NCBI GenBank assembly: GCA_025363385.1
Contig: JANYEA010000096.1
Coordinates: 1 to 64,000, forward strand
Reading direction: 5' to 3'
DNA: 64,000 nt
From: Bacteroidota bacterium
Lineage (GTDB): Bacteria; Bacteroidota; Bacteroidia; Chitinophagales; Chitinophagaceae
Part shown: one piece after another, positions 9,863 through 49,943 of the stretch
Layout of the letters: each line of letters starts with the position of its first letter
How positions within the stretch are numbered: position 1 is the stretch's first letter
The notes under the pieces: generated by a model
Seen by the model: only the letters and a program-made list of their open reading frames with translations
Database searches by the model: none
What the model was told of the DNA's origin: nothing
Program-made: the position numbers and the translations under genes

Positions 9863-9864
9863 GT

Positions 9865-20254: not shown

Positions 20255-20346
20255 GTTTCTATTGTGCAATTAAAGTCCATTTTGTATATTTAGTTAAAAC
20301 GAATATCAAACTAAATATTAAAATATTTTGGAATTTTAAATCATTT

Positions 20347-20898: not shown

Positions 20899-21310
20899 AA
20901 ATTATTTTCTAAGTAGATTATAAAACATTTCTAAATATATCTAGCATGAAAATAGAGATAGTTTCAATTACCAATTAATATGAAAAATATTTAATTTGAA
21001 TTATAAATTTTATTAATTTCAATAGTGGTACAAAATGATGATAAACTACTATGGCAAGAGCTGAGAAACTAACCTGATGCTAACAAAAAAAAATTTATAA
21101 AAGCATAGCTAGATATTGTAATATAATGTGTGTATGCTACTTTCTGCATCGGTTCGATTAGGATGTTCAGTTTTTTGTTTTGGTTCATTACTTCAACAAC
21201 ATATTTTCAAATAGAAATTTAAATCGGGCTGAACAAACCATGAGTTGCAGACCATCATAAATTCTGACTTATATGAACAAGAGGATTGACCACCTCTTAA
21301 AAATAATATT
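20899..21310. other. Intergenic 412 bp before the SIR2 gene
   Basis: AT-rich sequence without an open frame longer than a few codons and without a clear hairpin or repeat. It presumably carries the promoter of the SIR2 operon. Confidence 0.35.
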
Positions 21311-22417: not shown

Positions 22418-22611
22418 TGAAACTTACAAAAGAAGATAGAATCAGAACAATATATGGAAGAGGAAGACATGTTGTAATTAATGGGGCTGGAGCAAGTATC
22501 GCGTCAAAAATTAGAAAATCTGTAATGAGTGTGATAAAGCCTCCTTCAAAGAATAATTTTATTGATGTTCTTAAGATAAATGATATCGTTGATTCTGCCC
22601 AAAGGAGCTAA
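22417..22611 (+). CDS. Small protein coupled to SIR2, 64 aa
   Basis: The ATG overlaps the SIR2 stop (TAATG), which strongly supports translation. The basic 64-aa protein has GRGRHVVINGAGASIAS near residues 14-30, a glycine-rich GAGAS turn reminiscent of the NAD-binding start of SIR2, then a Lys-rich C-terminal half. It has no signal peptide or membrane helix. It may be an immunity, sensor or assembly partner of the SIR2 protein. No family is recognised. Confidence 0.65.
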   Translation: MKLTKEDRIRTIYGRGRHVVINGAGASIASKIRKSVMSVIKPPSKNNFIDVLKINDIVDSAQRS

Positions 22612-22651
22612 AGGCATTTAATTTTGAAGTATTGTATCCAAATCTTTAATT

Positions 22652-23080
22652 ATGGAAAATAGTTTTGAAGAATATCTCAATAAATATCGTGATGAATTGG
22701 TAATTCTATTGCATAAAAGTCAAGATCAATTTGAAAAACAACTATCATATATAAGTGCTGGAAGTTTGACTTTGTCAGTAGGTTTTATTAAAGATGTTGT
22801 AAAAAACATTGGATCAGCAAAATATAAGTGGCTACTTCAATTTGGTTGGATATTATTGGCTTTGACACTTCTAGTTAATTGTATTTCGCATATAATATCT
22901 GCAAGTAAACATAATAAAACAATTGATGAGATTAATAATGAATTGAATGGTAATGACACATACGATCATAATCAAATCAAAATAAGGTACAAACAAATTG
23001 AATTTTTAAACTGGGCTACAATTGGATTAATGATTGTAGGGATCTTACTTATTATTTTATTTGTTTCATCAAACTTATAA
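22652..23080 (+). CDS. Three-helix membrane protein of the SIR2 block
   Basis: A 142-aa protein with an amphipathic acidic N-terminus (residues 1-28) and hydrophobic helices near 32-52, 66-90 and 118-140. Between the last two is a charged loop (KHNKTIDEINNELNGNDTYD). It begins 40 bp after the 64-aa gene in the same direction, so it is probably in the SIR2 operon. A small membrane partner next to a SIR2 effector is a pattern seen in defence loci, but no named family is recognised. It could equally be a separate membrane effector. Confidence 0.65.
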   Translation: MENSFEEYLNKYRDELVILLHKSQDQFEKQLSYISAGSLTLSVGFIKDVVKNIGSAKYKWLLQFGWILLALTLLVNCISHIISASKHNKTIDEINNELNGNDTYDHNQIKIRYKQIEFLNWATIGLMIVGILLIILFVSSNL

Positions 23081-23081
23081 C

Positions 23082-23201
23082 ATGCGAAAAAATCAGACAT
23101 CAAGGAAATTTCTGTTTATGATTAATTTTTCAACCGGAAAAAAAGGAACTCAGCCATCTACACCAAGGCCAAAACCTAAACCAAAAAATAAGTTTAAATA
23201 A
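23082..23201 (+). CDS. Pro/Lys-rich microprotein 1, 39 aa
   Basis: The ATG is 1 bp beyond the stop of the three-helix membrane protein. The frame begins MRKNQTSRKF and ends in a very basic tail with PRPKPKPKNKFK. Tight spacing and the shared PKPKP motif with the next ORF argue that it is translated. No known family. Confidence 0.45.
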   Translation: MRKNQTSRKFLFMINFSTGKKGTQPSTPRPKPKPKNKFK

Positions 23202-23208
23202 ATTTTGT

Positions 23209-23358
23209 ATGAAGAATAAAAAACAGGATGAACCAAGACCTAAGCAAATAGAAAACATAAGTAAAGCTAAGAATACTGTCAAATTTGAAGGTAAATTTGG
23301 TTCAGTTGCTTCATCACCAAAGCCAAAACCGATAAGTAGCAACTTATCAAAAAAATAG
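23209..23358 (+). CDS. Pro/Lys-rich microprotein 2, 49 aa
   Basis: Starts 7 bp after microprotein 1 and ends in TAG. It begins MKNKKQDEPRPKQIEN and carries a second PKPKP near the C-terminus (SSPKPKPISSNLSKK). Same composition and motif as the ORF before it, which suggests a related pair. Function unknown; possibly a short basic linker peptide, antitoxin-like protein or nucleic-acid binder. Confidence 0.45.
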   Translation: MKNKKQDEPRPKQIENISKAKNTVKFEGKFGSVASSPKPKPISSNLSKK

Positions 23359-23428
23359 ATATCTATTATGTAATATATATACATAGAGGTAAAAAATCAA
23401 ACATTTTCCCATATTAACACTCATCTTG

Positions 23429-23980
23429 ATGACAGCATTTTTTGCGCCTATACTATCTTTAATTGGTGTTTTTGTTGGTTGGGGATTAACTCAGCTAACA
23501 AACTATTTCAATATTTATCTCAATGACAGACGGACGTTGAGAGAAACACTTTACTTTTTATTAGAAATGCAACATCAAATTGAAACTATTAAATCAATAG
23601 ATGAAGGAGCTAATTCATATTTACAAACTCTAAATTTATCTATCCCAAATTTTACATCAAGCCAAGAAGAATACGACCAAGTACTTCATGTTTTTAGAAA
23701 AATGATTATAGACTTTCACAACCCACGAATCCAAATAGAACTCCAGGAGTTAAATGAAAGTTATGACAATTGTTTACTGAAACTTGCCTCCGTTGACCCA
23801 ATTAGTGCATTCAGACTAAAAGGTAAAAATAAAATCATTTCATACTTAAATCAATGGAATAATTATGCATCAGAAACTATTCTATCTAATTTAAATGTTA
23901 ATGCTGATCCAAAAGCTATTGAACTTTCAAATGAATTGATACCTCAGGTAGAGAATGGATTAATAAACGAAACATTTTAA
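23429..23980 (+). CDS. Membrane-anchored helical protein, stop-split with the next ORF
   Basis: A 183-aa protein starting at the ATG at 23429 (a TTG lies one codon earlier). Residues 2-22 are a membrane helix (FFAPILSLIGVFVGWGL), followed by a long alpha-helical region ending NGLINETF. The frame continues after the TAA without any shift for 62 more codons (to 24169), and those residues are also helical and basic. The real gene may therefore have been about 245 aa, interrupted by one nonsense codon. It lies in the island cargo with unknown function; the membrane-plus-helical layout suits an effector or sensor. Confidence 0.65.
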   Translation: MTAFFAPILSLIGVFVGWGLTQLTNYFNIYLNDRRTLRETLYFLLEMQHQIETIKSIDEGANSYLQTLNLSIPNFTSSQEEYDQVLHVFRKMIIDFHNPRIQIELQELNESYDNCLLKLASVDPISAFRLKGKNKIISYLNQWNNYASETILSNLNVNADPKAIELSNELIPQVENGLINETF

Positions 23981-24169
23981 GATTTGCAAGAAATAATATG
24001 CTTGATAGCAAAACGCGCTGGAAGAAAAACTAAATTGGAATTCGAAAAGCGAATCATTAATTCTCAAGCAGAAAATAAAACCGTATTTGACAAAAGAATT
24101 AAAAAGTATGCTGAAGAAGTAGTAATCCCTGCAATTAAAAAAACACAAAACAATGAAAGTAACTTTTGA
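23981..24169 (+). pseudogene. Same-frame C-terminal continuation of the membrane-anchored protein
   Basis: Directly after the TAA at 23978-23980 the same frame stays open through DLQEIICLIAKRAGRKTK to a stop at 24169. The only internal start is a TTG at 23984, so an independent 61-aa gene is weakly supported. Reading it as the detached C-terminus of the preceding gene is more economical. Confidence 0.5.
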
Positions 24170-24245
24170 TTCGAATGTCTGAATAAAAGTGACATGTTGA
24201 GGTAATTAGAGTCAAATTTAAATCTTAATAATTCTAAGAAATAAA

Positions 24246-25013
24246 ATGGAAATCGAACAAAAGTCAATAAAACTTATTCAAACAGGTGCGGAAGTATTTG
24301 GTGGTGCTATTGGTAGTGCAATTGGATTAATTGGCGGACCAGCAGGTGCTATTGGAGGAAATGTTGCAGGTATAATTATTGCAAAAGGCCTTAATGAGTT
24401 AGCAAACAGATATCTTTCAAATAGAGAGCAAGCTCGAACTGGTGCAGCAGCAAGTTATACAATTTTTGGAGTTCAAAAAAAGTTGGATGAAGGCCTTACT
24501 CCGAGACAAGATGGCTTTTTTGATTCTACTGATACCAAAAGAAGTAAAGCAGAAGAACTTTTTGAAGGTATACTGTTAAAATGCAAAAATGAATTTGAAG
24601 AAAAAAAGATTGCATACATTTCAAATATTTATCAAAATGTTGCTTTTGATAACACAATCAACCCATTCAATGCGAATCAAATTTTATATGCAGCTCAACA
24701 AATGACTTATAGGCAAATTTCCATTTTGGCATTAATTGGGGTTAACATAAATAACCATTTAACATTACGGGATCAAGATTATCGTGACGATTATGATAAC
24801 GTTTCTACAGATTTAGAATTCATTCTTCAGGATTTTGTATACCTGGAAAAACAAGGGCTAATTGTTAGGGGTGACCATACAGCAATTATTGATGCATCAG
24901 ATGTTGTCCCAGGTAAAATGAAATTATCTTTAATTGGTTATGACTTTTATAAGATTTTAAGTCTAAGCGTTATGAAATTTAGTGAAATGGATTTTTTAGC
25001 ATTGCTAAAATAA
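24246..25013 (+). CDS. Gly-rich putative membrane-active protein
   Basis: A 255-aa protein. Residues about 13-48 are a Gly/Ala-rich hydrophobic stretch (GAEVFGGAIGSAIGLIGGPA followed by GAIGGNVAGIIIAKGL) with small residues spaced as in glycine-zipper or pore-forming helices. The remainder is soluble and helical, and residues 180-250 could form a winged-helix-like fold. There is no signal peptide. Glycine-zipper toxins and effectors behave this way, so a membrane-perturbing effector fits the cargo zone, but that is inference. No close family was recognised. Confidence 0.65.
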   Translation: MEIEQKSIKLIQTGAEVFGGAIGSAIGLIGGPAGAIGGNVAGIIIAKGLNELANRYLSNREQARTGAAASYTIFGVQKKLDEGLTPRQDGFFDSTDTKRSKAEELFEGILLKCKNEFEEKKIAYISNIYQNVAFDNTINPFNANQILYAAQQMTYRQISILALIGVNINNHLTLRDQDYRDDYDNVSTDLEFILQDFVYLEKQGLIVRGDHTAIIDASDVVPGKMKLSLIGYDFYKILSLSVMKFSEMDFLALLK

Positions 25014-25125
25014 AACTTATCAAAAAACAAATTTCAATTTAAGTGGCATATAATTGAATGTTGGGAAATGATTATTTCCTTCTGTTTATTGACTCTTATT
25101 AATTGTAGATTTAATTCCGTATTTA

Positions 25126-25980
25126 ATGAAAAACTATATTTTCGAAGAATTTAGTGAAATTGAGGAAAACATTAAAAAAAACGCACCACAAATCATTTAC
25201 AAATATCGTGGTGACTGGGATAACACTTATCATAAAGAATTAGTAACAATGCAAAAACTTTGGTTTTCAGCGCCTAGAGATCTTAATGATCCTTATGATA
25301 TTCGAGTTCCTTTACAATTTGAAATTAATGAAATTGAGGATCCATTATTCCTAATAAAACTTAAAAAACAGTTGAAAGAAAGTAATCCTTCCTTTACATT
25401 CACTGAAAAAGAAATTAATATTATTTGCGAAAACAAGCTTGATGAAATTAGAAAAAACCCTAAAGAATATTTTGAAAAAAACTATAAGTATATACGGGAA
25501 AGTGAAATATTCGATAGAGTAGGATTATTCAGTTGTTCTAATGATGAATTGAATGAAACGATGTGGGCACATTACGGAAATAATCATAAAGGGTTTGTTG
25601 TAGGTTTTAAAACAGTAGATCTTTGCCGTGATTTAATGTGTAGTATTGGGCCAGTAACATATAGTGATGAGGTCCCTAATTATAGTTTCCTTGACGCAAA
25701 TGTGTTAGATGATTTTGATTCCTTTTTCTTAAAGTCCAAAAAATGGGAATATGAAAATGAATTTAGATTCTTTACAATTGGTAATGATGAGAATATTGAA
25801 AGGTGTAAAAAATATAGTATTTCATCAGTAAGTGAATTTTTATTAGGATCAAATTTCGAAGACCAATTAAAAAAAGACTTCATACAGGAAGTAAAAAAAA
25901 TATTTCCTAATGAAATTCCCATTTATGAAGTGAAACCACAAGTTTCTGGTTTTGGACTTGTTAAGAATCTGATTAAATAA
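25126..25980 (+). CDS. DUF2971 family protein
   Basis: A 284-aa protein with the DUF2971 pattern: IYKYRG near the N-terminus, LWFSAPRDLNDPYD, FSCSNDELNETMWAHYGNNH (a Cys-Ser then MWAHYG core), an IGPVTYSD segment, and a late KSKKWEYENEFRFF block. The family is frequent in accessory and defence regions; its biochemical activity is not firmly known to me. It has no signal peptide. It is flanked by other cargo genes with 110-bp gaps, so it is probably transcribed on its own or loosely with them. Confidence 0.82.
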   Translation: MKNYIFEEFSEIEENIKKNAPQIIYKYRGDWDNTYHKELVTMQKLWFSAPRDLNDPYDIRVPLQFEINEIEDPLFLIKLKKQLKESNPSFTFTEKEINIICENKLDEIRKNPKEYFEKNYKYIRESEIFDRVGLFSCSNDELNETMWAHYGNNHKGFVVGFKTVDLCRDLMCSIGPVTYSDEVPNYSFLDANVLDDFDSFFLKSKKWEYENEFRFFTIGNDENIERCKKYSISSVSEFLLGSNFEDQLKKDFIQEVKKIFPNEIPIYEVKPQVSGFGLVKNLIK

Positions 25981-26091
25981 TTAAGCATCACCGAAATCGG
26001 AAACTCTATTTCTTAGATCAAGCTTTTTTATTATCATCCTCGAAATTTTGTTTAAGGAGACCTACAAGTACGTTTAATTAAAATTATTAGT

Positions 26092-37285: not shown

Positions 37286-37723
37286 TTACAGTTGTTTAAA
37301 CATAAACACATACTGATTTACTTTTACGAAATCATTTTTACTATGAAATGTATAGGCAGGCATCACTTCATTCGTCATTAAGGAGATGATTTCAATATCA
37401 TTTTGCCTGCAATAATTTTCACAGTGCTGAATGATTTTCTTTCCTACTCCTTTTCCTTTTGAATCATCACTTACAAATACTTCATCTATGTAGAGCTGGT
37501 CTTTTGTCCACCAAGTTTTTAAATGCCCTAGTAATGCAGCAACTATTTTACCATTATCAATAGCAACAAATCCTACAAACCTTTTTACTTCCAGATACTC
37601 AGTTAAATATGCCTGCGCTTTTTCTGCATTCCATTTATAATTCCAGGGTTTGGTATTATAAGAACTCATAAATATATCCACACAACTGTCTATATCATTT
37701 TTGGTTAATTCTCGTATTTCCAT
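37286..37723 (-). CDS. GNAT N-acetyltransferase
   Basis: A 145-aa GNAT-fold acetyltransferase. The acetyl-CoA-binding motif A is DDSKGKGVGKKIIQHCE (Q/R-x-x-G-x-G/A class), followed by a C-terminal YTFHSKNDFVKV motif B. The substrate is unknown. Its start lies 4 bp after the stop of the NRPS-like gene on the same strand, so the two are likely co-transcribed and it may act on the same product. It is convergent with the esterase gene. Confidence 0.85.
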   Translation of the reverse strand: MEIRELTKNDIDSCVDIFMSSYNTKPWNYKWNAEKAQAYLTEYLEVKRFVGFVAIDNGKIVAALLGHLKTWWTKDQLYIDEVFVSDDSKGKGVGKKIIQHCENYCRQNDIEIISLMTNEVMPAYTFHSKNDFVKVNQYVFMFKQL

Positions 37724-37726
37724 ATA

Positions 37727-40360
37727 TTAGTTATTTGATAAATCTAAAATTGCTTGCATTTGCGTGGCTAAAATCTTCACATTGGGTTCATGAAAAATTG
37801 TTTTGTGATCTCCGGGTATGTCGTATACAGAAACACCATCAATGGCTAAATTTGACCACCCCAAATATTTTTGATCATCAATAAAGTACAATCTTTCTTT
37901 TGCTTTAAATAAGTGTAAATGCCCTCTAAAATTATTCATCTGATATTTTTCCAGAGCGTGCTCATTGTTTTTACCTATTTGAGAAAGTGTAGTTTCCATA
38001 TTTTCTTGTACTTTCTCTTTTATTACCCCGATTTTTTTCAATGTTTTTTTACCAGCCTGTAAAAAAAGATACTGCTGATATTTTAAGGTTCTTTTTGGAT
38101 GTTTATAAAAAGATCTCAGAATGAATAGATATTTAGGTATCTGCCTTTTTATTTTTTTGCCAATTTTTTTCTTTAGATCTTTTTTATATAAAATGTTATT
38201 TGCATCAGTATCAAAAATACCAAACATGGTTACCTGCCTGCCTATTTTTTCTAGTTGCTGCTTGATTTCTACGGCTACATATCCACCAAAAGAATGACCA
38301 GAAATAGCAAAGTTACCCGATGGGTGATGCTGAATTAATTCATTTACATAGTGCGCTGCAATTTCTTCAATTGTTTCGTCTTTGATTTCCTCTTTATTAT
38401 CAAGACCCTTTGGTTGCAAAGAATATACGGGTTGTTCTTTGTGTAAATTATCTGCGAGGTTTTTAAAATTGATAATATTAATACCATCACCAGCTACAAT
38501 ATATAATGGAATTTTAGATCCAGATGCTTTGATTGGAATTAGTGATGTATATTTTGTTTCATTAATCGAAATATTTTTAACCAATGCTTCAATAGTTGGA
38601 TATTTAAAAAGTATGCTGATTGGCATCTTTATTTTAAATTTCTTTTCCACTTCTGAAATCAATTCCACTGCTATTAAAGACTGCCCGCCAAGATCGAAAA
38701 AGTTATCATCCATACTAATTTCAGAAACTTCTAACACTTGTTTCCAAATATATGCCATGTCAGTTTCTGGTTGATTCCTTGGGGCAATCAACTCTTTTTC
38801 TGTATTTGATTTTATGATATCTGGTAAGGCATTCCGATCTATTTTGTTATTTGCATTAACAGGTAATTCCGTTAACTGCATCCACAAAGCAGGAACCATA
38901 TAGTCGGGAAGAATCTTTCTAATAAACAATAGCATATCCTCATGCTTGTATCCCAATTTTGGTACTATATATCCTAATAAGCGTTTAACGCCATCAAGGT
39001 CTTTCGCCAATATAATCACATGATCAACCAATGGATATTTTCTGATAACACTTTCTATCTCACCCAGCTCCACCCTGAAGCCCCTGATTTTTACTTGCTG
39101 ATCCTTTCTGCCAAGAAATTCCATATTCCCATCTTCCATCATCCTGCCTAAATCGCCAGTTTTATACATCATTCCACCACAATTGGTATTGAAAGAATCT
39201 TTTACAAAGGACTGATTTGTTTTTTCTGAATCGTTTGCATAACCTACAGCAACACCAACCCCACCAATATATAATTCGCCCTGTTCACCATTTGGCACAG
39301 GTTTTAAATGCTCATCTAAAATGTAGAAAAAATTATTATCGATGGGCTTACCATAAGGTATACTTTTCCAATTTGGATGAATATTTTGTATGGTATAGTA
39401 ATTAGACCAAACAGTTGCCTCAGTAGCACCTCCTAAACTAATCACCTCTGCATTCGGAAAAAACTTTTTAATTCGATGGTATAAATTTAAAGGGATCCAG
39501 TCGCCACTTAAAAACACTAAACGTAATTCTGTTTGCTGATAAGAAGCATTTTTTGATTCTATACTTCTGATTAAAAAATCTAAAGTAGTAGGTACAGAAT
39601 CCCAGAATGTAACCTGATGTGTTTTTAATAAAACTGAAAGTTGTGCAAGATCAAATATTTGATCCTGTTCAGCAATTACAATGGAACCTCCAGAAGCAAG
39701 CATGCCAAAAATATCATACACAGAAAGATCAAAGCAAATTGAGGTTATAAAAAGTAAAATGTCTTTACTTGCCACCTGAAACCTAGTGTTTACCCATTTA
39801 ATTAAATTCACTGCAGAGTGATGCTGAATCATCACACCTTTGGGTCTTCCAGTAGATCCAGATGTGTAAATAGTGTAGGCCAATTGTTGACTTGATATTG
39901 TTAATTGCTGATTTGATGATGAAAAAGCTAATAAGTCGATATGCTGTAAATCGATAAAATCTAAACCCATTTTCAAAACTTCATAAAACTCAGGAAGATT
40001 ATGAAGTACAACTGATATTTTAGAATTCTCGATGATATATTTCTGCCTTTCAATCGGGTATTCAGGATCAATAGGTACGTATGCACCTCCACTTTTTAAA
40101 ATGGCCAACATGCCAATCATTACAAAAGGACTTCGTGTTACGAGTATGCCAATATTATTCCCTTTCAAAACATTCTTTTGTGTTAAAAGGAAATCAGCTA
40201 ACCGATTGGATTGAACATTTAATTCCGAATAAGTCATGCTGGCATTACCCCATCTAAGGGCAATATTACCTGGCGTTTTGATAACCTGTTCTTCAAATAA
40301 GTCTACAATTGTTTTATCAAACGGATAAGGCGTAATGGTATTATTAAAATCTTGTAACAT
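37727..40360 (-). CDS. NRPS-like A-PCP-TE protein, Cys-type signature
   Basis: An 877-aa single-module synthetase without a condensation domain. The adenylation domain (about 15-510) has A3 TSGSTGRPKG (166-175), A5 GGATEATVW, A7 YKTGDLG, A8 KIRGFRVELGE and A10 NNKIDR. A peptidyl-carrier domain has Ser561 in FFDLGGQSL, and a thioesterase has Ser690 in GHSFGG. The pocket residues read by alignment to PheA (D, L, Y, D, F, S, L, V, W, K) come closest to the cysteine codes I remember, and SGDWIP is typical of Cys-activating domains. It would release or transfer one amino acid. It has its own promoter (40391-40419) and precedes a GNAT gene. Confidence 0.9.
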   Translation of the reverse strand: MLQDFNNTITPYPFDKTIVDLFEEQVIKTPGNIALRWGNASMTYSELNVQSNRLADFLLTQKNVLKGNNIGILVTRSPFVMIGMLAILKSGGAYVPIDPEYPIERQKYIIENSKISVVLHNLPEFYEVLKMGLDFIDLQHIDLLAFSSSNQQLTISSQQLAYTIYTSGSTGRPKGVMIQHHSAVNLIKWVNTRFQVASKDILLFITSICFDLSVYDIFGMLASGGSIVIAEQDQIFDLAQLSVLLKTHQVTFWDSVPTTLDFLIRSIESKNASYQQTELRLVFLSGDWIPLNLYHRIKKFFPNAEVISLGGATEATVWSNYYTIQNIHPNWKSIPYGKPIDNNFFYILDEHLKPVPNGEQGELYIGGVGVAVGYANDSEKTNQSFVKDSFNTNCGGMMYKTGDLGRMMEDGNMEFLGRKDQQVKIRGFRVELGEIESVIRKYPLVDHVIILAKDLDGVKRLLGYIVPKLGYKHEDMLLFIRKILPDYMVPALWMQLTELPVNANNKIDRNALPDIIKSNTEKELIAPRNQPETDMAYIWKQVLEVSEISMDDNFFDLGGQSLIAVELISEVEKKFKIKMPISILFKYPTIEALVKNISINETKYTSLIPIKASGSKIPLYIVAGDGINIINFKNLADNLHKEQPVYSLQPKGLDNKEEIKDETIEEIAAHYVNELIQHHPSGNFAISGHSFGGYVAVEIKQQLEKIGRQVTMFGIFDTDANNILYKKDLKKKIGKKIKRQIPKYLFILRSFYKHPKRTLKYQQYLFLQAGKKTLKKIGVIKEKVQENMETTLSQIGKNNEHALEKYQMNNFRGHLHLFKAKERLYFIDDQKYLGWSNLAIDGVSVYDIPGDHKTIFHEPNVKILATQMQAILDLSNN

Positions 40361-40390
40361 GATGTTATTTGGGGCTTAATACTTGGCAAT

Positions 40391-40419
40391 CAAATGTAAT
40401 ATAATGTTTTGCCAACAAA
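40391..40419 (-). promoter_or_regulatory. Promoter of the NRPS-like gene
   Basis: On the minus strand a TTTG (-33 type, 40416-40419) is followed after 17 bp by TAcaTTTG (-7 type, 40391-40398), 30 bp before the ATG at 40360. Both fit the Bacteroidetes sigma-ABfr consensus; the spacer is 2 bp shorter than usual. Confidence 0.45.
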
Positions 40420-40464
40420 TATTAACATTTCAAAAACATTACCTTTATTTTTAAAACTAAAATA

Positions 40465-42102
40465 TTATTTTAAGGAATCTGAATTATATATTTTAAACTC
40501 ACCTCCTAAAATATTCCTAGTTGTTTCTTTGAATTTTGGGTTACATAAACTTAAGAGAGAATCTTCTCCGGGTATTTTGATGCCGCATAAATCAGTATAA
40601 GTAAAAAAAACATTCTGTGCTGAGGACTTTTTATTTTTATTGCCTTCTAAAAAAGCAATTTTGTTGGGAGATATTTTATGTAAATCATCTGAGTACCATA
40701 TAAAAAAAGGTATATGTGCAATGTATTTTGAAGGAATAGGGTATGCATGTTGCGACAGATGCCGGTCATCGTCAAAGAGATTCTCCCCATGATCTGAAAT
40801 ATATAGAACCGAAGAAACCACAGGTTTTGATTTTATAATTGAAATAACACTGTCTAAAATATAATCTGTATATAAAATACTGTTATCATAACTATTCACA
40901 ATCATTTCTTTATTCTTATAATCATTCGATAATGTTTTGAATTTTTTATTCGAAGGTTTATATATGTCAAATTCGTTTGGGTATCTCACAGAATAATCAT
41001 AATGGCTTCCCTGGAAATGAAGAACAATTAATTTCTTATCGCCTGGCTCGTTTAAAACAGATTCCAATTTTGGCAATAATTCTACATCTTGATGAATGTT
41101 GATGGTAGATTTAGAACTCTGTGGCATTAAAATTTTCATATCAACATCATCTCTATGCAAACTTATATTACCATGATCAATTTGATTGGAGATCCAATAG
41201 GTATAGAACCCTGCTTCTTTAAATGCATCAATGATACTTTTCCTTTTATAGTTTTCTTCAAAGACAGAGGGATTTACTCCTGTTATAATCAGGGGTACAG
41301 AATATTCGGTGATATATGCATTTGTATGGGTGTTGGAAAAAGTAATCAGATTTTGCTGATTCGATAATTTTGGATTCGTGTTACGAAAATAACCGTTGAT
41401 AGACCAATGGTCATAACGCGAACTTTCGCCTAATACTAATATATATACCTGCTTTTTTGAAATGCCAGGGCTTTGAATCGAATTGAATTTGAATTGCTGC
41501 CTTTGCTTGGTACTTGCATGAATAACTTTATATTGATTGAGCACTAAGCCAACAGAATAAAAAAAGGAAGTAGGGTAATACGAATAAAAAATCCCTTTTA
41601 ATTGTTTCGGGTAAGAGGATTCTCTTCCTATTAAAAATGGAACTGATACAATTAGTAAGAACGATGTAAGACTGATCCAGATACTTGATTGTAAACTAAT
41701 AGTATGTGGCAATTTTGACAGCAACAAAAAGTAAACTAAAAATACTATCGATAATAGAATCAAAAAGGGTAAAATATACCCGCCAATTAATTCAAAAGCT
41801 TCTTGTGAATTAGTATTAATAGTAATTACCACCATGGAATCGTTAATCGGAACATGATAGAATACCATGCATGCAATGGTAAATGGAACAAAAAAAATAA
41901 TAGGGGATAATAACCAGGCGTATAATCGAAGATGATTTCTAAAAAGAATGATCGGAATTAATAATAAACAGCTAATGCAAACCATACCTATCAGCGCAAT
42001 TTTTATTTTTTGATCATGTACTAAAAACACAAAATCAGCACCTGTTACAAGAAGAATGATCAGAAAAAAGTACCGAAATGAAGGTTTATAATTTTTTAAC
42101 AT
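40465..42102 (-). CDS. Phosphoethanolamine transferase-like sulfatase-fold enzyme
   Basis: A 545-aa inner-membrane protein. About four or five membrane helices lie in residues 10-170, then a periplasmic sulfatase-fold catalytic domain. The nucleophile motif is LVLGESSRYDHWSINGY, where Ser stands at the place of the usual catalytic Thr of EptA. Metal-site pieces are TNAYITEYSVPL, ISDHGENLFDD and the His in HLSQHAYPIP. It would add phosphoethanolamine or a similar group to lipid A or another surface lipid. It lies upstream of and codirectional with the NRPS-like gene, 104 bp away. Confidence 0.88.
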   Translation of the reverse strand: MLKNYKPSFRYFFLIILLVTGADFVFLVHDQKIKIALIGMVCISCLLLIPIILFRNHLRLYAWLLSPIIFFVPFTIACMVFYHVPINDSMVVITINTNSQEAFELIGGYILPFLILLSIVFLVYFLLLSKLPHTISLQSSIWISLTSFLLIVSVPFLIGRESSYPKQLKGIFYSYYPTSFFYSVGLVLNQYKVIHASTKQRQQFKFNSIQSPGISKKQVYILVLGESSRYDHWSINGYFRNTNPKLSNQQNLITFSNTHTNAYITEYSVPLIITGVNPSVFEENYKRKSIIDAFKEAGFYTYWISNQIDHGNISLHRDDVDMKILMPQSSKSTINIHQDVELLPKLESVLNEPGDKKLIVLHFQGSHYDYSVRYPNEFDIYKPSNKKFKTLSNDYKNKEMIVNSYDNSILYTDYILDSVISIIKSKPVVSSVLYISDHGENLFDDDRHLSQHAYPIPSKYIAHIPFFIWYSDDLHKISPNKIAFLEGNKNKKSSAQNVFFTYTDLCGIKIPGEDSLLSLCNPKFKETTRNILGGEFKIYNSDSLK

Positions 42103-42271
42103 TGACTAAATTTCGTTTACTATATTATTTTAATATGGTATAACGTACAGTTCATACAAACAAGTATGTCTAGTATAAATATTTTTAATATGTGCCATTC
42201 CAAAGCAGAAAAAAACTAATTTTCAAGCAGATAGCACAATAAAAAAAAGCTTTTAGAGTTATTTCAGAATC

Positions 42272-42970
42272 ATGCCGCCAATTTTATTCGATAAGGAAGT
42301 TCTACAGTGTTTTAGTTCGTTTGAATTAAACCATCAACGATTCAATGATTTTGTAATTTTATTATCAGATAATAATTTACTGAAAGGTGGTATTATAGTA
42401 GCATTTTGTTGGTATATAGGTTTTGCTAAATCTGAAAATCTAGTAAGAAACCGTAAAGGTGTTTTTACTACTGTTTTATTCAGTTTTGTGGCTCTGTTTA
42501 TTACAAGGATTATCGTTCATGTTGCCACATTCAGACCAAGGCCTTTTTTAAATAAAAGTTTGGCTTTAGCTACCCCTGAAAATTTAAACATCTTAGCGTT
42601 TTCAAGAGAAAGCTCTTTTCCAAGCGATCATGCCACTTTATTTATGGCTTTGAGTTATGGTATCTGGAAAATAAATAAAAAGGTAGGAATTGGCGTGATC
42701 TTTTATACAATTCTTTTTATTCTTTTTCCTCGAATGTACTTAGGCCTGCATTATCCCACGGATATTGTATTTGGTTCGCTCATTGGTATATTAGTAGTTG
42801 AATTTGGATTTAGGTTTCAGTTATCTAAAAAGCTTGATCCATATTTATTTCAGTTCGCTGATAAAAAACCGGGGCTATTTTATCCACTTTTATTTTTGAT
42901 TTCGTATCAAATTGCAGATCTTTTTCAAGATACTAGAATGCTGATGGGTTTTATATTACATAGTAAATAG
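42272..42970 (+). CDS. PAP2-superfamily phosphatase (undecaprenyl-PP phosphatase-like)
   Basis: A 232-aa polytopic membrane phosphatase. The three PAP2 signature regions are FRPRPF, SSFPSDHATLF and MYLGLHYPTDI, with five or six membrane helices. These enzymes dephosphorylate undecaprenyl pyrophosphate or lipid phosphates at the membrane, and this one fits beside lipid-linked glycan genes. It is divergent from the phosphoethanolamine-transferase-like gene across 169 bp, and it has a convergent neighbour (the flippase) 32 bp away. Confidence 0.88.
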   Translation: MPPILFDKEVLQCFSSFELNHQRFNDFVILLSDNNLLKGGIIVAFCWYIGFAKSENLVRNRKGVFTTVLFSFVALFITRIIVHVATFRPRPFLNKSLALATPENLNILAFSRESSFPSDHATLFMALSYGIWKINKKVGIGVIFYTILFILFPRMYLGLHYPTDIVFGSLIGILVVEFGFRFQLSKKLDPYLFQFADKKPGLFYPLLFLISYQIADLFQDTRMLMGFILHSK

Positions 42971-43002
42971 ATATTCATGTAATAGTGTTCAAACTATTTT
43001 TA

Positions 43003-44355
43003 CTAAGCAGCTTTGTGTTTTCTAAACTGATTTATTTTAGCAGCTACTAATGCTAATTTTATCTTTGATTCAGCCCAGCCAGTTTGAAAAATTTCTTTAA
43101 AAGTAAAATCTAATTTTTTCCTTAAGGTGTAATAACCAAATAATACGCCAGAAATAATAGTTAAGGGAGATACAATTGCGATTCCATATAAATTCTTAAA
43201 TATAACAATACCAGCAAATGTTCCACCAACACTAAAAAATAACATAATCAGTACTTTCTGAAAGTTTACATGCGGCAAATGCAACATGTCGAGCGTTACA
43301 CCACTAAATCTATCGAAAGGAAATAGCAAAGAAAAAAGAATCATAATCCTAAAAATATTTGCAGCTTCGGTACCTACATATTTTGAACCTCCCAAAATAG
43401 AAATGGCTACATCTGCAAATATGATACCCCCTAATACTAATGGAATAAATGCAAAAGTTAGTAGGCCAACATATTTTTTAAATACACTCAAAACCTCATC
43501 AATTTTATTTCTGTTCATTGCAGCTGCCATAGCAGACATACCTGTTCCTATAAAACTACTCAAGGGTAATTCAATGATGGTCATGAGTCTGCATGGAATA
43601 TTATAAATAGCCAAGGATGCTGGTCCGAGTAACATGGTGATAAAAAAAGTATCTGCGTTCTTAAATAGAATAGTACTGATATTGCTTCCCAGACTGTATT
43701 TGCCAAAATGTGAAATTTCAATAATTATTTCCTTTGTGAATTTTATTAAAGTCCTTATTCGGGAAAGATTCATGACCACGCAGAATAAAGAGGAAAATAA
43801 ATTTGTAACAAAATTCAAGATCATCAAATTTTCTAAACTCATTTTGTGCCATAAAATAAGGCCCCCAATAATCAGAAACATAGAACCACTATTCACTAAT
43901 CTTAACCATAATATTTTGGTGTAATTTTCATCTGCCATCAAGATCCAGGTGGTTACTGTAAAGGGTAAAGAACTTAAAAATGTTACACCTAACCACTTAA
44001 TCACGATGATCATTTGTGGGTAATCTATATTCTTAAATATTAACCATAGTATACCATTCAATAACATTAAGGTAAGTGTAATGCTAATGGCAATAAACCA
44101 TATAGAGCCTAAAACGCCTTCAGCTCTTTCTTTTACGGTACCTGCATAAAATTTTACTGTGGCGGTACCTAAAAATCCTGCTCGAAAAGATTCAGCTACA
44201 CTTTGCACGCTTAAGAAAAAAAACCAGGATCCAATATCAGGTTTCGTCATCGACCTGTATAAAAGAGACATGATGATGATACTAAAAGCAGAGATAACAA
44301 TATTACCAGTTAGCGCTAAAAAGTGCTTATTTTTTAAACTTGAAATCTTAATCAT
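43003..44355 (-). CDS. Oligosaccharide flippase (MOP/Wzx-like)
   Basis: A 450-aa polytopic protein with about twelve to fourteen membrane helices and the polysaccharide-export pattern of the MOP superfamily. N-terminal features are ALTGNIVISAFSIIIMSLLY and the segment WFFFLSVQS; the C-terminal half repeats the helical pairs. No catalytic site is expected. It would flip a lipid-linked glycan across the inner membrane, consistent with the neighbouring PAP2, ATP-grasp and GT14 genes. It is transcribed leftward, divergently from the ATP-grasp gene. Confidence 0.85.
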   Translation of the reverse strand: MIKISSLKNKHFLALTGNIVISAFSIIIMSLLYRSMTKPDIGSWFFFLSVQSVAESFRAGFLGTATVKFYAGTVKERAEGVLGSIWFIAISITLTLMLLNGILWLIFKNIDYPQMIIVIKWLGVTFLSSLPFTVTTWILMADENYTKILWLRLVNSGSMFLIIGGLILWHKMSLENLMILNFVTNLFSSLFCVVMNLSRIRTLIKFTKEIIIEISHFGKYSLGSNISTILFKNADTFFITMLLGPASLAIYNIPCRLMTIIELPLSSFIGTGMSAMAAAMNRNKIDEVLSVFKKYVGLLTFAFIPLVLGGIIFADVAISILGGSKYVGTEAANIFRIMILFSLLFPFDRFSGVTLDMLHLPHVNFQKVLIMLFFSVGGTFAGIVIFKNLYGIAIVSPLTIISGVLFGYYTLRKKLDFTFKEIFQTGWAESKIKLALVAAKINQFRKHKAA

Positions 44356-44449
44356 TGTAAAGGAATAGTTTTCACACAGTATTTAACGTAAAAGTAATTG
44401 ATGCTTCCTATATATTGCTGATATTTATATATATTTAAATTAAAAATCT

Positions 44450-45601
44450 ATGTTTAATGTATTAGTAGCTTGTTATGGCAAATGGGATGCAACTGCTGAA
44501 GTACCATATATTTTAAAAAAAGCAGGCTGTCATGTGGATGTTTTTTGTACAAACGAATCCTGGCTTATTTCAAATAAATATTATGATAATTGGATTGACG
44601 CTGGTGAAGGAAAGGAATTTAATAAAGAAAAATTCTTTTCTGTAATCGAGAATAATAATTATCAATGGATCATATTAGGGGATGATATCTTGATCAATTT
44701 CATGAATCAAGAGATCCATGATGAAGCATTATTCCTAAAAATATTACCGCTCACTAAAATAGCGAACAGAAAAATTCTTAGTTCCAAACAAGGGTTATCT
44801 GATTTTTGTATTGCCAACAAAATTGATACACCTGGTTATGTGATGTATAATGATCTATCAGATCTTGAAACAATTAAGGCAACTTTGCATTTCCCGGTAA
44901 TTAATAAACTCGATTTTAGCTTTGGGGGTACTGATATGTTCATTAGTAATTCCTTTGAAGAGTTTCAAACAAATATTCATAAACTACCATTGGGTAAAAA
45001 TGTGCTGGTACAGGAATTTGTTACTGGTGAAGAAATTCCTGTAGAAGGTCTGTTTTATAAGGGCGAATTATTGGTATACTTAAGCTCCAATGTGTTGAAA
45101 TATTCCAGTACCAATTTTTCCTATACAACCCGGAAAAATTATTACGATAATGAAGACCTTAAGCCCATTCTAATACGCCTTGGAAAGGAACTTGGGTTAA
45201 GTGGTTTTGCCAATATGCTTTATATCTATAACAAGCAATCTGATAAATATTATCTAATTGAAGTAGATCCAAGGCCCAATTCATGGATGGCATATGGTAG
45301 GTTCATCGCAAATACCAATTTTTCTGATGGAGTAAAACGAATAATTAGTGGCGACTATATCAATGGTTATCAGGGTATGGGAATTAAAAAACCAAAAGTG
45401 GAAGTGGCTTTGTTCTATAAAGACATGAAACGGGTTATTTGGAATAAAGATCTTAATGGAGCCATGAGTTGGTTATTGAATAGAAAGGGCTTTTGGATGT
45501 ACCTGCCTTTTTATGATTTTAAACTAACACGCCGAATTTTTACAACTCTTTGGCGTGAAGTTGTTGGATACAAATGGAAAAAGCTCATGGGCAAAATATA
45601 A
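44450..45601 (+). CDS. ATP-grasp ligase
   Basis: A 383-aa cytoplasmic ATP-grasp protein. An N-terminal pre-ATP-grasp domain (about 1-105) is followed by the ATP-grasp core with FPVINKLDFSFGGTD (the Lys/Gly-rich loop), VLVQEFVTGEEI and the metal-binding LIEVDPRPNSW. Such ligases join a carboxylate to an amine, often an amino acid to a peptide or sugar. With the NRPS-like gene nearby, an amino-acid-modifying role is plausible. It is codirectional with the GT14 gene 36 bp downstream. Confidence 0.85.
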   Translation: MFNVLVACYGKWDATAEVPYILKKAGCHVDVFCTNESWLISNKYYDNWIDAGEGKEFNKEKFFSVIENNNYQWIILGDDILINFMNQEIHDEALFLKILPLTKIANRKILSSKQGLSDFCIANKIDTPGYVMYNDLSDLETIKATLHFPVINKLDFSFGGTDMFISNSFEEFQTNIHKLPLGKNVLVQEFVTGEEIPVEGLFYKGELLVYLSSNVLKYSSTNFSYTTRKNYYDNEDLKPILIRLGKELGLSGFANMLYIYNKQSDKYYLIEVDPRPNSWMAYGRFIANTNFSDGVKRIISGDYINGYQGMGIKKPKVEVALFYKDMKRVIWNKDLNGAMSWLLNRKGFWMYLPFYDFKLTRRIFTTLWREVVGYKWKKLMGKI

Positions 45602-45637
45602 TTTGTGTATTCCCGTTATAAATGAAGAATATATCTA

Positions 45638-46483
45638 ATGCGATTAGCCCATTTAATTTTGGTTCATAATAATCCGGAACAACTGGAAAGACTTTTAAAA
45701 AAAATGGTCTATAGTAATTCCGATGTATATATTCATATAGATAAAAAGGCGGATCAAACACAATTCGAATATTTACTGTCATTACCCAACGTATTTTTTA
45801 TTAAAAACAGAAAATCAGTTGGCTGGGGTAATTATAGTATGGTTGATGCAACTCTTGTAAGCATGCAAGAAATATTGGATTCTCAGAAAATATACTCCCA
45901 TATAAATTTAATGAGCGGACAAGATTATTTACTAAAGCGGATAGAGGAAATTGAAGCATTTTATTTTGCAAACTCAGACAAGTCTTTTATCGCCTATCTT
46001 TCTATAAATACGGAATGGCAAGATGCTAAAAAGCGGTTGGTAAAGTATAACCTTGGCGATTTAACCATACCCTTAAAAGTAGTAGCGCAGATTATTGTAA
46101 ATGTGGTTTTTCCAGATAGAAAGATCCCGGAAAATTTTGAGCCTTATGGCAGGTCTCAATGGATAACCATCACACCCAGTTGTATAAGATATGTATTAGA
46201 AATACTGAAAGAAAAGCCTGAAGTTTTAAATTTCTTTAAGTGGACCTGGGCTGTTGATGAAATCATTTTCCAGACAATTCTTTTAAATTCACCTTTCAAA
46301 GAAACGATTGTAAATGAAAACAAGCGTTATATAAAATTTGAAAATAATGAACTGAATCCAAAAATTCTTAAAACGGCCGATGCTGATAATTTGCTCAAGT
46401 CTGGAAAATTCTTTGCCAGAAAATTTTCAATTCAAGAAGACAGCCAGATTTTAGATATCATTGATGAGGCTATTGGAAATTAA
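45638..46483 (+). CDS. GT14-type (core-2/I-branching) glycosyltransferase
   Basis: A 281-aa glycosyltransferase of the core-2/I-branching family (GT14). The start is typical (MRLAHLILVHNNPEQLERLL) with a DVYIHIDKKAD segment, then the signature INLMSGQDYLL, YGRSQWITITP and a WAVDEIIFQT acidic segment. GT14 enzymes transfer N-acetylglucosamine or xylose; the donor here is unknown. It follows the ATP-grasp gene, and the two form an operon that meets the convergent nucleoside hydrolase gene. Confidence 0.88.
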   Translation: MRLAHLILVHNNPEQLERLLKKMVYSNSDVYIHIDKKADQTQFEYLLSLPNVFFIKNRKSVGWGNYSMVDATLVSMQEILDSQKIYSHINLMSGQDYLLKRIEEIEAFYFANSDKSFIAYLSINTEWQDAKKRLVKYNLGDLTIPLKVVAQIIVNVVFPDRKIPENFEPYGRSQWITITPSCIRYVLEILKEKPEVLNFFKWTWAVDEIIFQTILLNSPFKETIVNENKRYIKFENNELNPKILKTADADNLLKSGKFFARKFSIQEDSQILDIIDEAIGN

Positions 46484-46492: not shown

Positions 46493-47497
46493 TTATTTAA
46501 AGTTGTGTAATGACTGAAAAAAGTCGTTAATTATTTTCTCTTTTTCAAAATATTCCCAAATAATTATTTTTCTGGAATTATTCGGTTGGTCAACCCATTT
46601 TTTATCGATCATCAAGGGACAACTTATTTCAGTGGATCTAGCCCATTTTGGATTTTTAACGATGGCAACTGCTGCCATATCAAATAATGCCCTGGATGGA
46701 GGGGTTCCATAATAATCAACATGTTCGAAAAGACTAATTGAATAATCTCCAAATCGATAGAATTCCCCACCATGCCTTCCAATTATTGGTTTTTCAATTA
46801 TTGGTCCAACTTCCTGTAAGTTTTTTAATGCTTCTTCTTTAGTTACGCTTACTATATTGGTTCCAGAATTTTTTCCATTTTCCACGGTTACCATTTCAAA
46901 ATCTATATCTGTTTTTAAAATGAAATTCATGGCAGGAATATCATTCTCTAAATTATACTCTCCTGGATCTGGATAATTTCCACCCAGCCATACTAAACGA
47001 ATATTTTTACTTATGGCAGGTTCTTTCTTTAAGGCCAATGCTATATTGGTTAGCTTACCAACCGCTATCACTACTAATTTATTTTTGGTATGTTTTTTTG
47101 CTTCTGCTATAATAAAATTGACTGCGCTATATCCATCAAATTTTTCAGTTGACAAATCTTTTGCGATCTCCGAAAATGAAGTATTGGCTCCCTTGAATAG
47201 CGGAATTGTTTTTGAAACACTACAAAGCTTCATGATGCGCTCAGCTTCTATATATTGATCATTAATATTGCCACCATTATATGTGGCATTTACTGTTACC
47301 GCCTTTGTATTAAAAAAAGCACTATTGAAAAATAAATAAGCCAATGCTTGTTGATCGTCTAATTCGTTATTGGCATCTGAATCTAAAATAATGTCTAACT
47401 TTTTTGACTCGTTTATCGAATTTTGAGCCTCACTATTCAATGAAGAAATCAATACTATCAATTGCAATAAGCAAATTATTTTGATCAACTTCTTCAT
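46493..47497 (-). CDS. Exported inosine-uridine nucleoside hydrolase-like protein
   Basis: A 334-aa protein. I chose the ATG at 47497 (MKKLIKIICLLQ) because a signal peptide ending SEAQ follows directly; an upstream ATG at 47539 lies within the GH95 gene. The nucleoside hydrolase site is visible as DIILDSDANNELDDQQAL, a variant of the DTDxGxDD calcium motif, with a later HGGEFY segment. It probably cleaves a ribosyl or related N-glycosidic bond outside the cytoplasm. It starts 7 bp after the GH95 stop, so it belongs to the same operon. Confidence 0.82.
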   Translation of the reverse strand: MKKLIKIICLLQLIVLISSLNSEAQNSINESKKLDIILDSDANNELDDQQALAYLFFNSAFFNTKAVTVNATYNGGNINDQYIEAERIMKLCSVSKTIPLFKGANTSFSEIAKDLSTEKFDGYSAVNFIIAEAKKHTKNKLVVIAVGKLTNIALALKKEPAISKNIRLVWLGGNYPDPGEYNLENDIPAMNFILKTDIDFEMVTVENGKNSGTNIVSVTKEEALKNLQEVGPIIEKPIIGRHGGEFYRFGDYSISLFEHVDYYGTPPSRALFDMAAVAIVKNPKWARSTEISCPLMIDKKWVDQPNNSRKIIIWEYFEKEKIINDFFQSLHNFK

Positions 47498-47504
47498 ATC
47501 GTTT

Positions 47505-49943
47505 TTATTTTGCGGTTTTAATAGTTTCCATTTTTCCATTCATCATCACTTTCGCGGATGCTTGAGTGGATGATTTTATTTTTACATTTTTCACCTTTCC
47601 TTCACTCCAACTAAAATCAACTTCATAATTTCCCCTTGCTTTCAATCCTTTTACTTCTCCTGAAGGCCAAGCTTTTGGAAGTGCAGGTAATAATTCTATA
47701 TATTCTGCATTGGATTGTACTAACATTTCAGCAACGGCTGCTGCTCCACCAAAATTTCCATCAATTTGAAAAGGCGGATGTGCATCAAACAAATTTGGAT
47801 AGGTACCACCACCATTTGAGTAATTTTCTCTGATCTCATCGGGTGCTACATATTTTAATAATTCCCGATACATTTTATATGCATGATCGCCATCTTTTAA
47901 GCGAGCCCAAAGATTGATTCGCCACCCTTTTGACCAACCAGTTGTTTCATCACCTTTGATCTCGAGCGTTCTTTTTGCCGCAGCTGCTATGAGTGGTGTC
48001 TTTTCTGTGGTAACATGTGTACCAGGATATAAGCCATACAAATGACTTTGATGGCGATGCTTCGGATCTGAATCTTCCCAATCGTAATACCACTCTTGCA
48101 AATTACCTTTTTTGCCAACCTGATAAGGATGCAGATTCATAAAAGCTGCATTTACTTTTGCTGCAAAATCATTATCGTTCTTTAATATTTGCTGCGCTGC
48201 AAGTATATCTAAAAATAATTCTCTGATCATTGCCAGATCTGCAGTTCCACCATACATGGTTGCTCCTATAAATCCGCTAGGCGTTTTATAGGTATTTTCA
48301 GGAGAAGTGGAAGGTGAAGTGATGTATTGCCCACTACTATCTTTTACCAACCATGCCAAACAAAACTCGGCAGCTCCACGCATCAGTGGGTATGCTTTCT
48401 GTTCTAAAAAAGATTTGTCTTGTGTAAATAAATAATGCTCCCATAAATGTGTGGAGGCCCAGGTTCCACCCATGGCCCAGTTGGCCCAACTTGGATCTCC
48501 ATTTCCAAAATTTCCTACTGGGTTCGACATGGCCCAGATATCTGAATTATGATGCACCGCCCAACCCGGCATATTATAAAATGTTTTTGCTGTAATACTT
48601 CCCGTTTTTGCAAGATTGCCTATGAACTGTAAAAATGGTTGGTGCATTTCTGAAAGATTTGTGTTCTCTGCCAACCAATAATTTTCTTCTGCATTAATAT
48701 TCATGGTATAGTTACTAGACCATGGTGGTTGAATATATGGATTCCATAAACCCTGCAAATTTGCAGGTACCGCATTTGTTCTGGAGCTACTAATTAGTAA
48801 ATAACGTCCGTACTGAAAATATAAAGTCTCTAAATACGGATCAGTAGCACCAGTTGCATATCGCTTTAAACGTTTATCAGTGGGTAGATTAACTGTATCC
48901 TTATTAGCCAGTTTTAATTGAACCCGATTATAAAATGTTTGATAATCTTTGATGTGATTATTTTTGATTTCAGTCCACCCAGTTTTATAAGCTTTATTCA
49001 TCTCTGAAGCAGCAATAGCCACATTGTCTGCACCTTTAGTGGCCGGGTCTTTATCAAATCCATTGAAGCTTGTAGCCATTGAAACATATACGGTTGCTTC
49101 TGTAGCATCCGATAAACTAATGGTAGAATCTGTTTTTGTAATTTTACCAGTACTACTTTGAATTTTGACATCGGCAGAAAACTTGGTTCCTTTTTTAGGA
49201 TCAAAAGAAACGGCGTCTTTTGTTTTTTGAACATAACTCGGATCTGCTTTCAAAGGTGCTGTTCCTTGAATAGTAATGATATTATTGGCAGTTGATCTTT
49301 GATATTTCAACAATGATTCAAATGCAATGGTAAAACCCAGAGCACCCGGTGTTTTACTAGTAAAATGTATGGCAAAGATCTGGTTGGGATTCGATACTAA
49401 ATATTCTCTTTCTATTACATTACTATTAGAAATGGTTTTTACTTTCGCAATAGCCCGATCCAGATCCAGTTCACGATAATAATCATTGATATAGGGATCA
49501 TCATTCATCTTAATTAACAGGGTACCCAATGGCGCATACGATTCAGAAAATTTCCCTTGTAGTTTTTTTATTAGCTGCTCGGCCTTTTTATAGTTTTTAT
49601 CCTGTAAAGCTTTACGTACATCCGGTAAATGCTTGTAGGCATTTGGATTCATATTTGCATTTACTGGTTCTCCAGACCAAAGTGTAAGATCATTCAAGTA
49701 AATCTTATCTGTTGAGATTCCTCCAAATACGGTTGCACCCTGTGTGCCATTTCCAAGCACTAGTGTTTCTTCAAAATAGTTAGCCGGACTTTCGTACCAT
49801 AATTTTAAGGGTAACTGTATGCTGGCTGTGCTTGCAACTGAAATAACAGCAGGTGTGGATTTGGTTTTTTTTGCAGGCTTTTTTTGTGCTAATAAACATG
49901 CAGGTAATGCAATTGAAACCAGTGCAATTAAAAATTTATTCAT
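47505..49943 (-). CDS. GH95 alpha-L-fucosidase/galactosidase
   Basis: An 812-aa exported glycoside hydrolase of family GH95. Signal peptide 1-19 is followed by a Pro/Lys/Thr linker, then the N-terminal [19 protein letters not shown] signature, [16 protein letters not shown] (conserved Asn residues of the inverting mechanism) and [18 protein letters not shown] (the conserved Asp/Asn block). It acts on terminal alpha-L-fucosyl or alpha-L-galactosyl groups of plant glycans such as xyloglucan or rhamnogalacturonan-II. It lies between the VF530 gene and the nucleoside hydrolase gene, all leftward. Confidence 0.93.

Follow-up and report, generated by a model that had tools for sequence, protein, structure and literature searches.

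A condensation-less A-PCP-TE module paired with a GNAT acetyltransferase in Bacteroidota and its possible link to exopolysaccharide

Described systems and the lone module

In D-alanylation by the Dlt system, an adenylation (A) domain and a separate carrier supply an aminoacyl group to a surface polymer via the membrane acyltransferase DltB. Tri-domain quinone and furanone synthetases, built from A, thiolation (T) and thioesterase (TE) domains, take aryl keto acids, and we know of no nonribosomal peptide synthetase (NRPS) part that is standard in Wzx/Wzy-type exopolysaccharide loci. As described in PMC4351081, an A domain activates an amino acid in the biosynthesis of lincosamide and streptothricin, and this amino acid is joined in carrier-bound form to an amino sugar; the joining is assigned, as proposed, to the non-NRPS proteins LmbD/E/F/V in lincosamide and to an unusual condensation (C) domain in streptothricin. 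Here, we describe a 64,000-nucleotide stretch of DNA (contig JANYEA010000096.1, positions 1 to 64,000; hereafter, the window) from a member of the Chitinophagaceae (Bacteroidota), which encodes a lone NRPS module made of an A domain, a peptidyl carrier protein (PCP) domain and a TE domain, followed by a GNAT acetyltransferase. We propose, with a probability of roughly 0.43, that these two genes form a dedicated cassette from which a Wzx/Wzy-type exopolysaccharide receives an activated small amino acid. The joining of amino acids to amino sugars via carrier proteins is known already, and what appears to be new here is a lone NRPS module among exopolysaccharide genes.

The window synthetase resembles Dlt in having an A domain and a carrier that would serve a cell-surface polymer, but its carrier lies within one protein, whereas Dlt uses a separate carrier and DltB. 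A DltB-type MBOAT acyltransferase was not matched among the nine window proteins scanned, the rest of the genome not having been searched. The domain order is that of the A-T-TE synthetases, from which the module differs by retaining the amino-group anchor Asp235 where those enzymes take aryl keto acids. With lincosamide and streptothricin, as described in PMC4351081, the module would have in common a carrier-bound activated amino acid destined for an amino sugar; in those pathways, however, the sugar is that of a small antibiotic, whereas the window holds one C-less A-PCP-TE protein beside polymer genes. The literature searched, which left most subscription papers outside its coverage, did not describe a lone NRPS module within exopolysaccharide operons, and the pocket code used as a search word gave no match.

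The synthetase and its GNAT partner

Judged from the alignment, the catalytic motifs of the A, PCP and TE domains are intact, with carrier Ser561 and the TE residues S690, D717 and H852 invariant across 19 aligned sequences. The preliminary description of a condensation-less NRPS-like protein was confirmed, since the Pfam scan returned AMP-binding, PP-binding and thioesterase domains and no C domain. The pocket code, DLYDFSLVWK, is identical in the window synthetase and its three family orthologues and nearly invariant across the clade described below (Ile for Val in a few members, Leu for Phe in locus L133). It had been called a Cys-type pocket, which holds in part: seven of its ten letters match the Cys code DLYNLSLIWK, but position 278 is Asp where known Cys domains have Asn, so that the DLYNLSLIWK-like signature with Asn278 of Cys-specific A domains is absent from the window pocket. 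Among solved structures, relatives of the pocket region are mainly Cys-type modules with Asn278, the best matches being BmdB and dihydroaeruginoic acid synthetase, both Cys-activating. According to PMC12283262, the main cluster of Cys-activating domains also has Asn278, and the code DLYD does not occur in the main text of that source.

The two kinds of domain also differ in what precedes them. Among 69 Asp278-type domains in the fetched loci, as assigned by motif, 34 are preceded by a C domain, 7 by a C-like motif (3 of these 7 matches being loose) and 1 by a cyclization (Cy) motif, with too little upstream sequence in 24 and an unclear context in 3. Of 18 Asn278-type domains, 9 follow Cy and 1 follows C (5 unclear, 3 too short). 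Asp278 therefore marks a class distinct from thiazoline-forming Cys modules, and the substrate may be Cys or another small polar residue. The idea that the substrate is 2,3-diaminopropionate, its second amine pairing with Asp278, gained no support: the SbnB family had one own-genome match, below cut-off, and neither SbnA nor SbnB was among the 25 families listed of 194 matched by 77 neighbor proteins (285 to 410 amino acids) from 52 loci. Some larger synthetases share this pocket exactly or almost so, and near them we observed an enzyme resembling 1-aminocyclopropane-1-carboxylate deaminase or D-cysteine desulfhydrase (L154:13889-14923 and L156:13932-15886), accompanied in L156 by a luciferase-like oxidoreductase.

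When named genomes were scanned with the pocket region, 79 loci were obtained from the best 80 of 546 confirmed stretches, and a midpoint-rooted maximum-likelihood tree was built from 77 A domains (loci up to L160; L161 to L172 were left out), in which L048 and L049 form long branches. All 22 lone modules with the window pocket, or nearly so, fall in one clade of 26 rows with support of 100/99; they comprise the window, three family genomes and 18 named loci, the other four rows being larger synthetases. The 22 named rows of the clade are all Bacteroidota (Chitinophagaceae, Pedobacter, Mucilaginibacter and unclassified members), and within the family, orthologues occur in 4 of 195 genomes. The synthetases of genomes G127 and G105 keep a broken condensation-domain remnant of about 250 amino acids without the HHxxxDG motif, and other clade members have N-terminal stretches of varied length; the lone module therefore likely arose, on these sequence traits, from an NRPS termination module by loss of its C domain. 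In L099, L103 and L104, genes read as glucose-6-phosphate dehydrogenase-, 6-phosphogluconate dehydrogenase- and 6-phosphogluconolactonase-like lie upstream of the synthetase.

The GNAT gene begins 3 bp downstream of the synthetase on the same strand, and the two are therefore probably one operon. Of the 22 lone modules, 17 have a relative of this GNAT in their neighborhood, counting G105 across a contig end; in 15 of these 17 it lies directly downstream (in G105 by inference), and in L097 and L128 it lies 2 to 4 kb away on the other strand. Among the 195 family genomes, with at most the 20 best candidates scored per genome, the GNAT profile matched 3 at an E value of 1e-15, always adjoining the synthetase (P = 3e-6 for the overlap of genomes; 2e-4 with the window excluded), whereas G194 carries a synthetase orthologue without a GNAT match. 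In the class, with at most the 10 best candidates per genome, 2 of 395 genomes matched, and the second of these is a distant GNAT of 24% identity, whose surrounding 15 kb holds no relative of the synthetase, flippase, ATP-grasp or GT14. With so few genomes matched, the idea that the GNAT is a common gene found nearby by chance was rejected. Together, the clade and the pairing place the window synthetase among lone A-PCP-TE proteins of common ancestry with a GNAT partner. Seventeen GNAT members were aligned, and a model with a mean predicted local distance difference test score (pLDDT) of 88 shows an ordinary GNAT fold, whose relatives by sequence and by fold are mostly small-molecule or peptide amine acetyltransferases.

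Exopolysaccharide surroundings and linkage of the window genes

Next to the pairing itself, its surroundings link it in part of the relatives to exopolysaccharide genes. In Mucilaginibacter frigoritolerans (L110), one strand carries WecG, WbaP, GDP-mannose dehydratase, A-PCP-TE, GNAT, Wza, Wzc-like, Wzx-like, membrane protein and GT4 (glycosyltransferase [GT] family 4) genes; the membrane protein has no Pfam match and resembles the subthreshold Wzy of L103. The order in M. flavidus (L113) is similar, except that Wzx was not matched, and in L106, L128 and L134 Wza- and Wzc-like genes lie on the synthetase strand, so that codirectional exopolysaccharide genes are found in five Mucilaginibacter loci. 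The genes of a Wzx/Wzy pathway thus stand together with the synthetase in L110, save for a Wzy that is only Wzy-like, and are not together with it in the window. In genome G105, a hexapeptide acyltransferase is followed by a synthetase at a contig end, and another contig begins with a synthetase end, followed by the GNAT, a flippase, a 249-amino-acid gene on the opposite strand, a regulator-like gene, WbaP and GT2; the two synthetase pieces are, we infer, one gene.

At least one kind of core exopolysaccharide marker was present in 10 of the 22 lone-module loci, and at least two kinds in 8, compared with a single locus among the 61 others of the scan and a single one among 20 other Bacteroidota loci (10/22 versus 1/20, P = 0.004), a comparison in which the 20 control loci were hand-picked by name, the markers were partly drawn from the same loci and so match themselves, the window was scored as linked via its own flippase, and the large synthetases of the control loci occupy much of their flanks. 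The sole hit among the 61 scan controls, L104, is a two-module member of the same clade. L097 has GT14 and GT2 genes and no core marker.

Outside the clade, the family has six further lone A-PCP-TE proteins in the tree. In G087 (L048), which belongs to the same genus as the window, such a protein with a Gly-like pocket, DILQLGVIWK, abuts a GT14 gene (frames 7951-8799 and 8800-11415), and an ATP-grasp gene lies about 6 kb away; a nearly identical Gly code appears in PMC12283262. A third type, in G064 (L047:1759-11362), is found with a phosphopantetheinyl transferase, Wza, a Wzc-like protein and two sulfotransferases. These two of the six hint that lone modules entered exopolysaccharide-type loci more than once.

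The window's own genome holds the parts of a Wzx/Wzy pathway, with the Wzx-type flippase in the window and Wzy_C, an AAA ATPase and Bac_transf on contig C8. There, locus L082 contains Wzy_C, a Wzc-like AAA ATPase, a WbaP-type sugar transferase (Bac_transf), GT2, GT4, GT14 and a hexapeptide acyltransferase, and no flippase or ATP-grasp of the window families was seen in its 20 kb. A second exopolysaccharide-type locus, L083 (C8, 72000-91900), about 60 kb from L082, has GT4, Wzy-like, flippase and WbaP-type genes. A phosphopantetheinyl transferase family match is also present in the genome.

The features of the region are given in Table 1. The seven genes named in the preliminary description were all recovered as long open frames with matches above Pfam cut-offs. 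The EptA-like and PAP2 genes sit between the synthetase and the flippase, the flippase and ATP-grasp genes diverge from a 94-bp spacer, and 36 bp separate the codirectional ATP-grasp and GT14 genes. The EptA-like protein has both an EptA_B_N domain and a sulfatase-fold domain, from which phosphoethanolamine transfer is predicted. The model of the ATP-grasp protein (pLDDT, 87) has as its top fold match the L-amino acid ligase 3vot, and PylC and PurK structures match it at nearly the same E value. A Bacteroidota-type promoter motif had 5 matches in the window against 4.7 expected and none in the two spacers inspected. After the cluster (46493-49943), there are a nucleoside hydrolase, by Pfam, and a protein read as GH95 fucosidase-like. 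Positions 18001-26000 have a guanine-plus-cytosine content of 28 to 30%, against 31 to 41% elsewhere in the window, and are possibly a foreign or mobile stretch.

Table 1. Genes and synthetase domains at positions 37286 to 46483 of the window
Feature	Coordinates	Strand	Supporting match
GNAT acetyltransferase	37286..37723	-	PF00583, 48.4 bits, above Pfam cut-off
Lone NRPS module A-PCP-TE, 877 aa, no condensation domain	37727..40360	-	PF00501, PF00550, PF00975 above cut-offs
Thioesterase domain, residues 626-865, GHSFGG, Asp717, His852	37766..38485	-	PF00975
Peptidyl carrier domain, residues 538-595, motif LGGQSL	38576..38749	-	PF00550
Adenylation domain, residues about 22-513, pocket DLYDFSLVWK	38822..40297	-	
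EptA/CptA-type phosphoethanolamine transferase-like membrane protein	40465..42102	-	EptA_B_N (PF08019) and Sulfatase (PF00884); NF028537 below its cut-off
PAP2 phosphatase, undecaprenyl-diphosphatase-like	42272..42970	+	PF01569; NF008813 below its cut-off
Wzx-type flippase	43003..44355	-	Polysacc_synt_3 (PF13440)/MatE
ATP-grasp ligase	44450..45601	+	ATP-grasp_3 (PF02655)
GT14 (Core-2/I-branching) glycosyltransferase	45638..46483	+	Branch PF02485, 88.1 bits, cut-off 23.4

The 195 family genomes were searched for relatives of the synthetase, ATP-grasp, GT14, flippase and EptA genes, and genes within 12 kb were taken as linked. Several of the genomes analyzed are fragmented drafts, and a number of loci stop inside the 10-kb flank. 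The counts used the stronger rows (NRPS, 78/102, from the best four scored candidates per genome; flippase, 31/71, with 18 weaker ones tallied apart; GT14, 43/64; EptA, 12/21; ATP-grasp, 23/23), those left out standing at or near the weaker end; the window genome is included in each count, and an expectation was computed for the flippase-NRPS pair only. Five of the 31 strong flippase places lie near an NRPS gene, against 0.13 expected, corresponding to 5 of the 10 genomes having both; without the window, four places remain (Poisson, 1e-5). The window and G105 represent the lone-module clade, and G166, G089 and G114 have larger NRPS genes (frames of 1341 to 2186 amino acids). Flippases of the window family stand directly beside larger NRPS genes in L060, L061 and L074, where they are possibly peptide exporters.

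The flippase was linked with ATP-grasp in 7 of the 15 genomes having both and with GT14 in 7 of 17, and ATP-grasp with GT14 in 5 of 10. The divergent flippase/ATP-grasp pair is kept in five relatives (L054 to L058). As in Wzx/Wzy loci, G138 (L059) has the flippase, ATP-grasp, GT14, Wzc-like ATPase, Wzy, GT4, GT8 and GT2 in one run, and the protein cluster of the window flippase is also found in exopolysaccharide loci of relatives. EptA was linked with GT14 in 3 of 7 genomes. NRPS genes were linked with ATP-grasp in 2 of 7 genomes having both, with GT14 in 3 of 12 and with EptA in 1 of 3, the window itself; on these counts, the whole gene set as one pathway was not supported. The preliminary description had named scattering of the genes among relatives as an outcome that would speak against its proposal. 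Since flippases lie near NRPS genes above chance, plain scattering was not observed; the flippase, ATP-grasp and GT14 hold together, but the EptA-like gene comes close to being scattered with respect to the synthetase.

Proposed role of the pair and competing explanations

The proposed cassette is consistent with the intact A, PCP and TE motifs, the missing C domain, the GNAT pairing and the exopolysaccharide linkage in part of the relatives. The phosphopantetheinyl transferase of the genome would prime the carrier, and the A domain would load it with a small, Cys-sized amino acid. The GNAT might N-acetylate this amino acid while it is bound to the carrier or after its release, and the acyl acceptor of the TE would be, in place of water, a nucleotide sugar or an undecaprenyl-linked repeat unit with a free hydroxyl or amine. 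The flippase could then export the decorated unit, with ATP-grasp and GT14 presumably belonging to the polymer and not to the cassette. The remaining machinery (Wzc-like ATPase, Wzy, WbaP and GTs) may be that of the C8 locus L082, in which no flippase was seen; this assignment is only a guess, because the same contig has the second such locus with a flippase of its own. The transfer by the TE to a sugar is the least certain step, hydrolysis being the usual alternative.

Several observations weigh against the proposed cassette. Type I TE domains usually hydrolyze or cyclize, and the loci were not seen to share, all of them, any dedicated gene for an acceptor or a transferase. Twelve of the 22 lone-module loci, among them those of Pedobacter hiemivivus, P. 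foliorum, P. nyackensis and Chitinophaga eiseniae, lack a core exopolysaccharide marker in the flanks examined. The GNAT is absent in 5 of the 22, three of which (L106, L133 and L134) are within exopolysaccharide loci, and four of the six other lone A-PCP-TE proteins (L044, L045, L046 and L049) have no exopolysaccharide neighbors by map reading. The flippase of L083, 32% identical to that of the window, lies elsewhere in the same genome, and G164, of the same genus, yielded at the thresholds used no match to any of the synthetase, flippase, ATP-grasp, GT14, EptA and GNAT.

The 12 marker-less loci therefore make a diffusible product a real rival, although we regard it as somewhat doubtful. According to this explanation, the TE releases a small molecule made by the pair, be it an N-acetyl amino acid, a dimer or an amide; the GNAT finishes the product or protects the producer, and the exopolysaccharide loci are variable regions that collect cargo, the flippase perhaps acting as exporter. 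In its favor, the solved GNAT relatives include streptothricin, aminoglycoside and polyamine acetyltransferases, and the flippase family also stands beside the larger NRPS genes of G166, G089 and G114. Nevertheless, the pair lies among codirectional exopolysaccharide genes in the five Mucilaginibacter loci, two further lone-module lineages have similar surroundings, and inspection of the neighborhoods of the unlinked loci showed no alternative partner gene common to them. Another explanation, which seems distinctly unlikely to us, is that the region is a mosaic, where the flippase, ATP-grasp and GT14 serve exopolysaccharide, the EptA-like and PAP2 enzymes have lipid A or undecaprenyl phosphate as their target, and chance brought the synthetase-GNAT pair to this place. 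Strands do alternate in the window, many flippase/ATP-grasp loci have no synthetase, and the EptA-synthetase linkage is confined to the window; against chance arrival stand the excess of flippase-NRPS linkage (5 versus 0.13) and G105, of another genus, where the end of such a synthetase precedes the GNAT and a flippase of the window family comes immediately next.

The preliminary description had suggested an amino-acid-decorated glycolipid or surface glycan. A glycolipid, for which the EptA-like enzyme and PAP2 would work on the lipid side, appears highly improbable: the genes adjoin in the window, and the synthetase-bearing genomes G127 and G194 hold the next two best EptA matches, but these are on other contigs, the window is the one linked case among the three genomes having both genes, and G087 has its lone A-PCP-TE protein beside GT14 with no EptA match at the threshold used. 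The surface glycan is the better-supported half of that suggestion, in part borne out by the flippase-NRPS linkage above chance and by the presence of the pair inside exopolysaccharide operons of several Mucilaginibacter.

The exopolysaccharide cassette could also be taken further. An NRPS TE turned glycan acyltransferase might attach amino acids, N-acetylated and perhaps carrying a thiol, to every repeat unit ahead of export. The resulting polymer could cross-link or bind metals, and in sister lineages other lone modules, with Gly-like and further pockets, might act likewise; we consider this extended form unlikely. The A-PCP-TE and GNAT genes offer a testable two-gene handle in named Mucilaginibacter and Pedobacter species. 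Overall, the Bacteroidota that carry the pair may use an activated amino acid to decorate their slime or capsule. If so, detached NRPS modules would serve to modify polymer coats instead of producing free peptides, and some of the "orphan single-module NRPS" hits of genome mining in Bacteroidota would represent polysaccharide chemistry.

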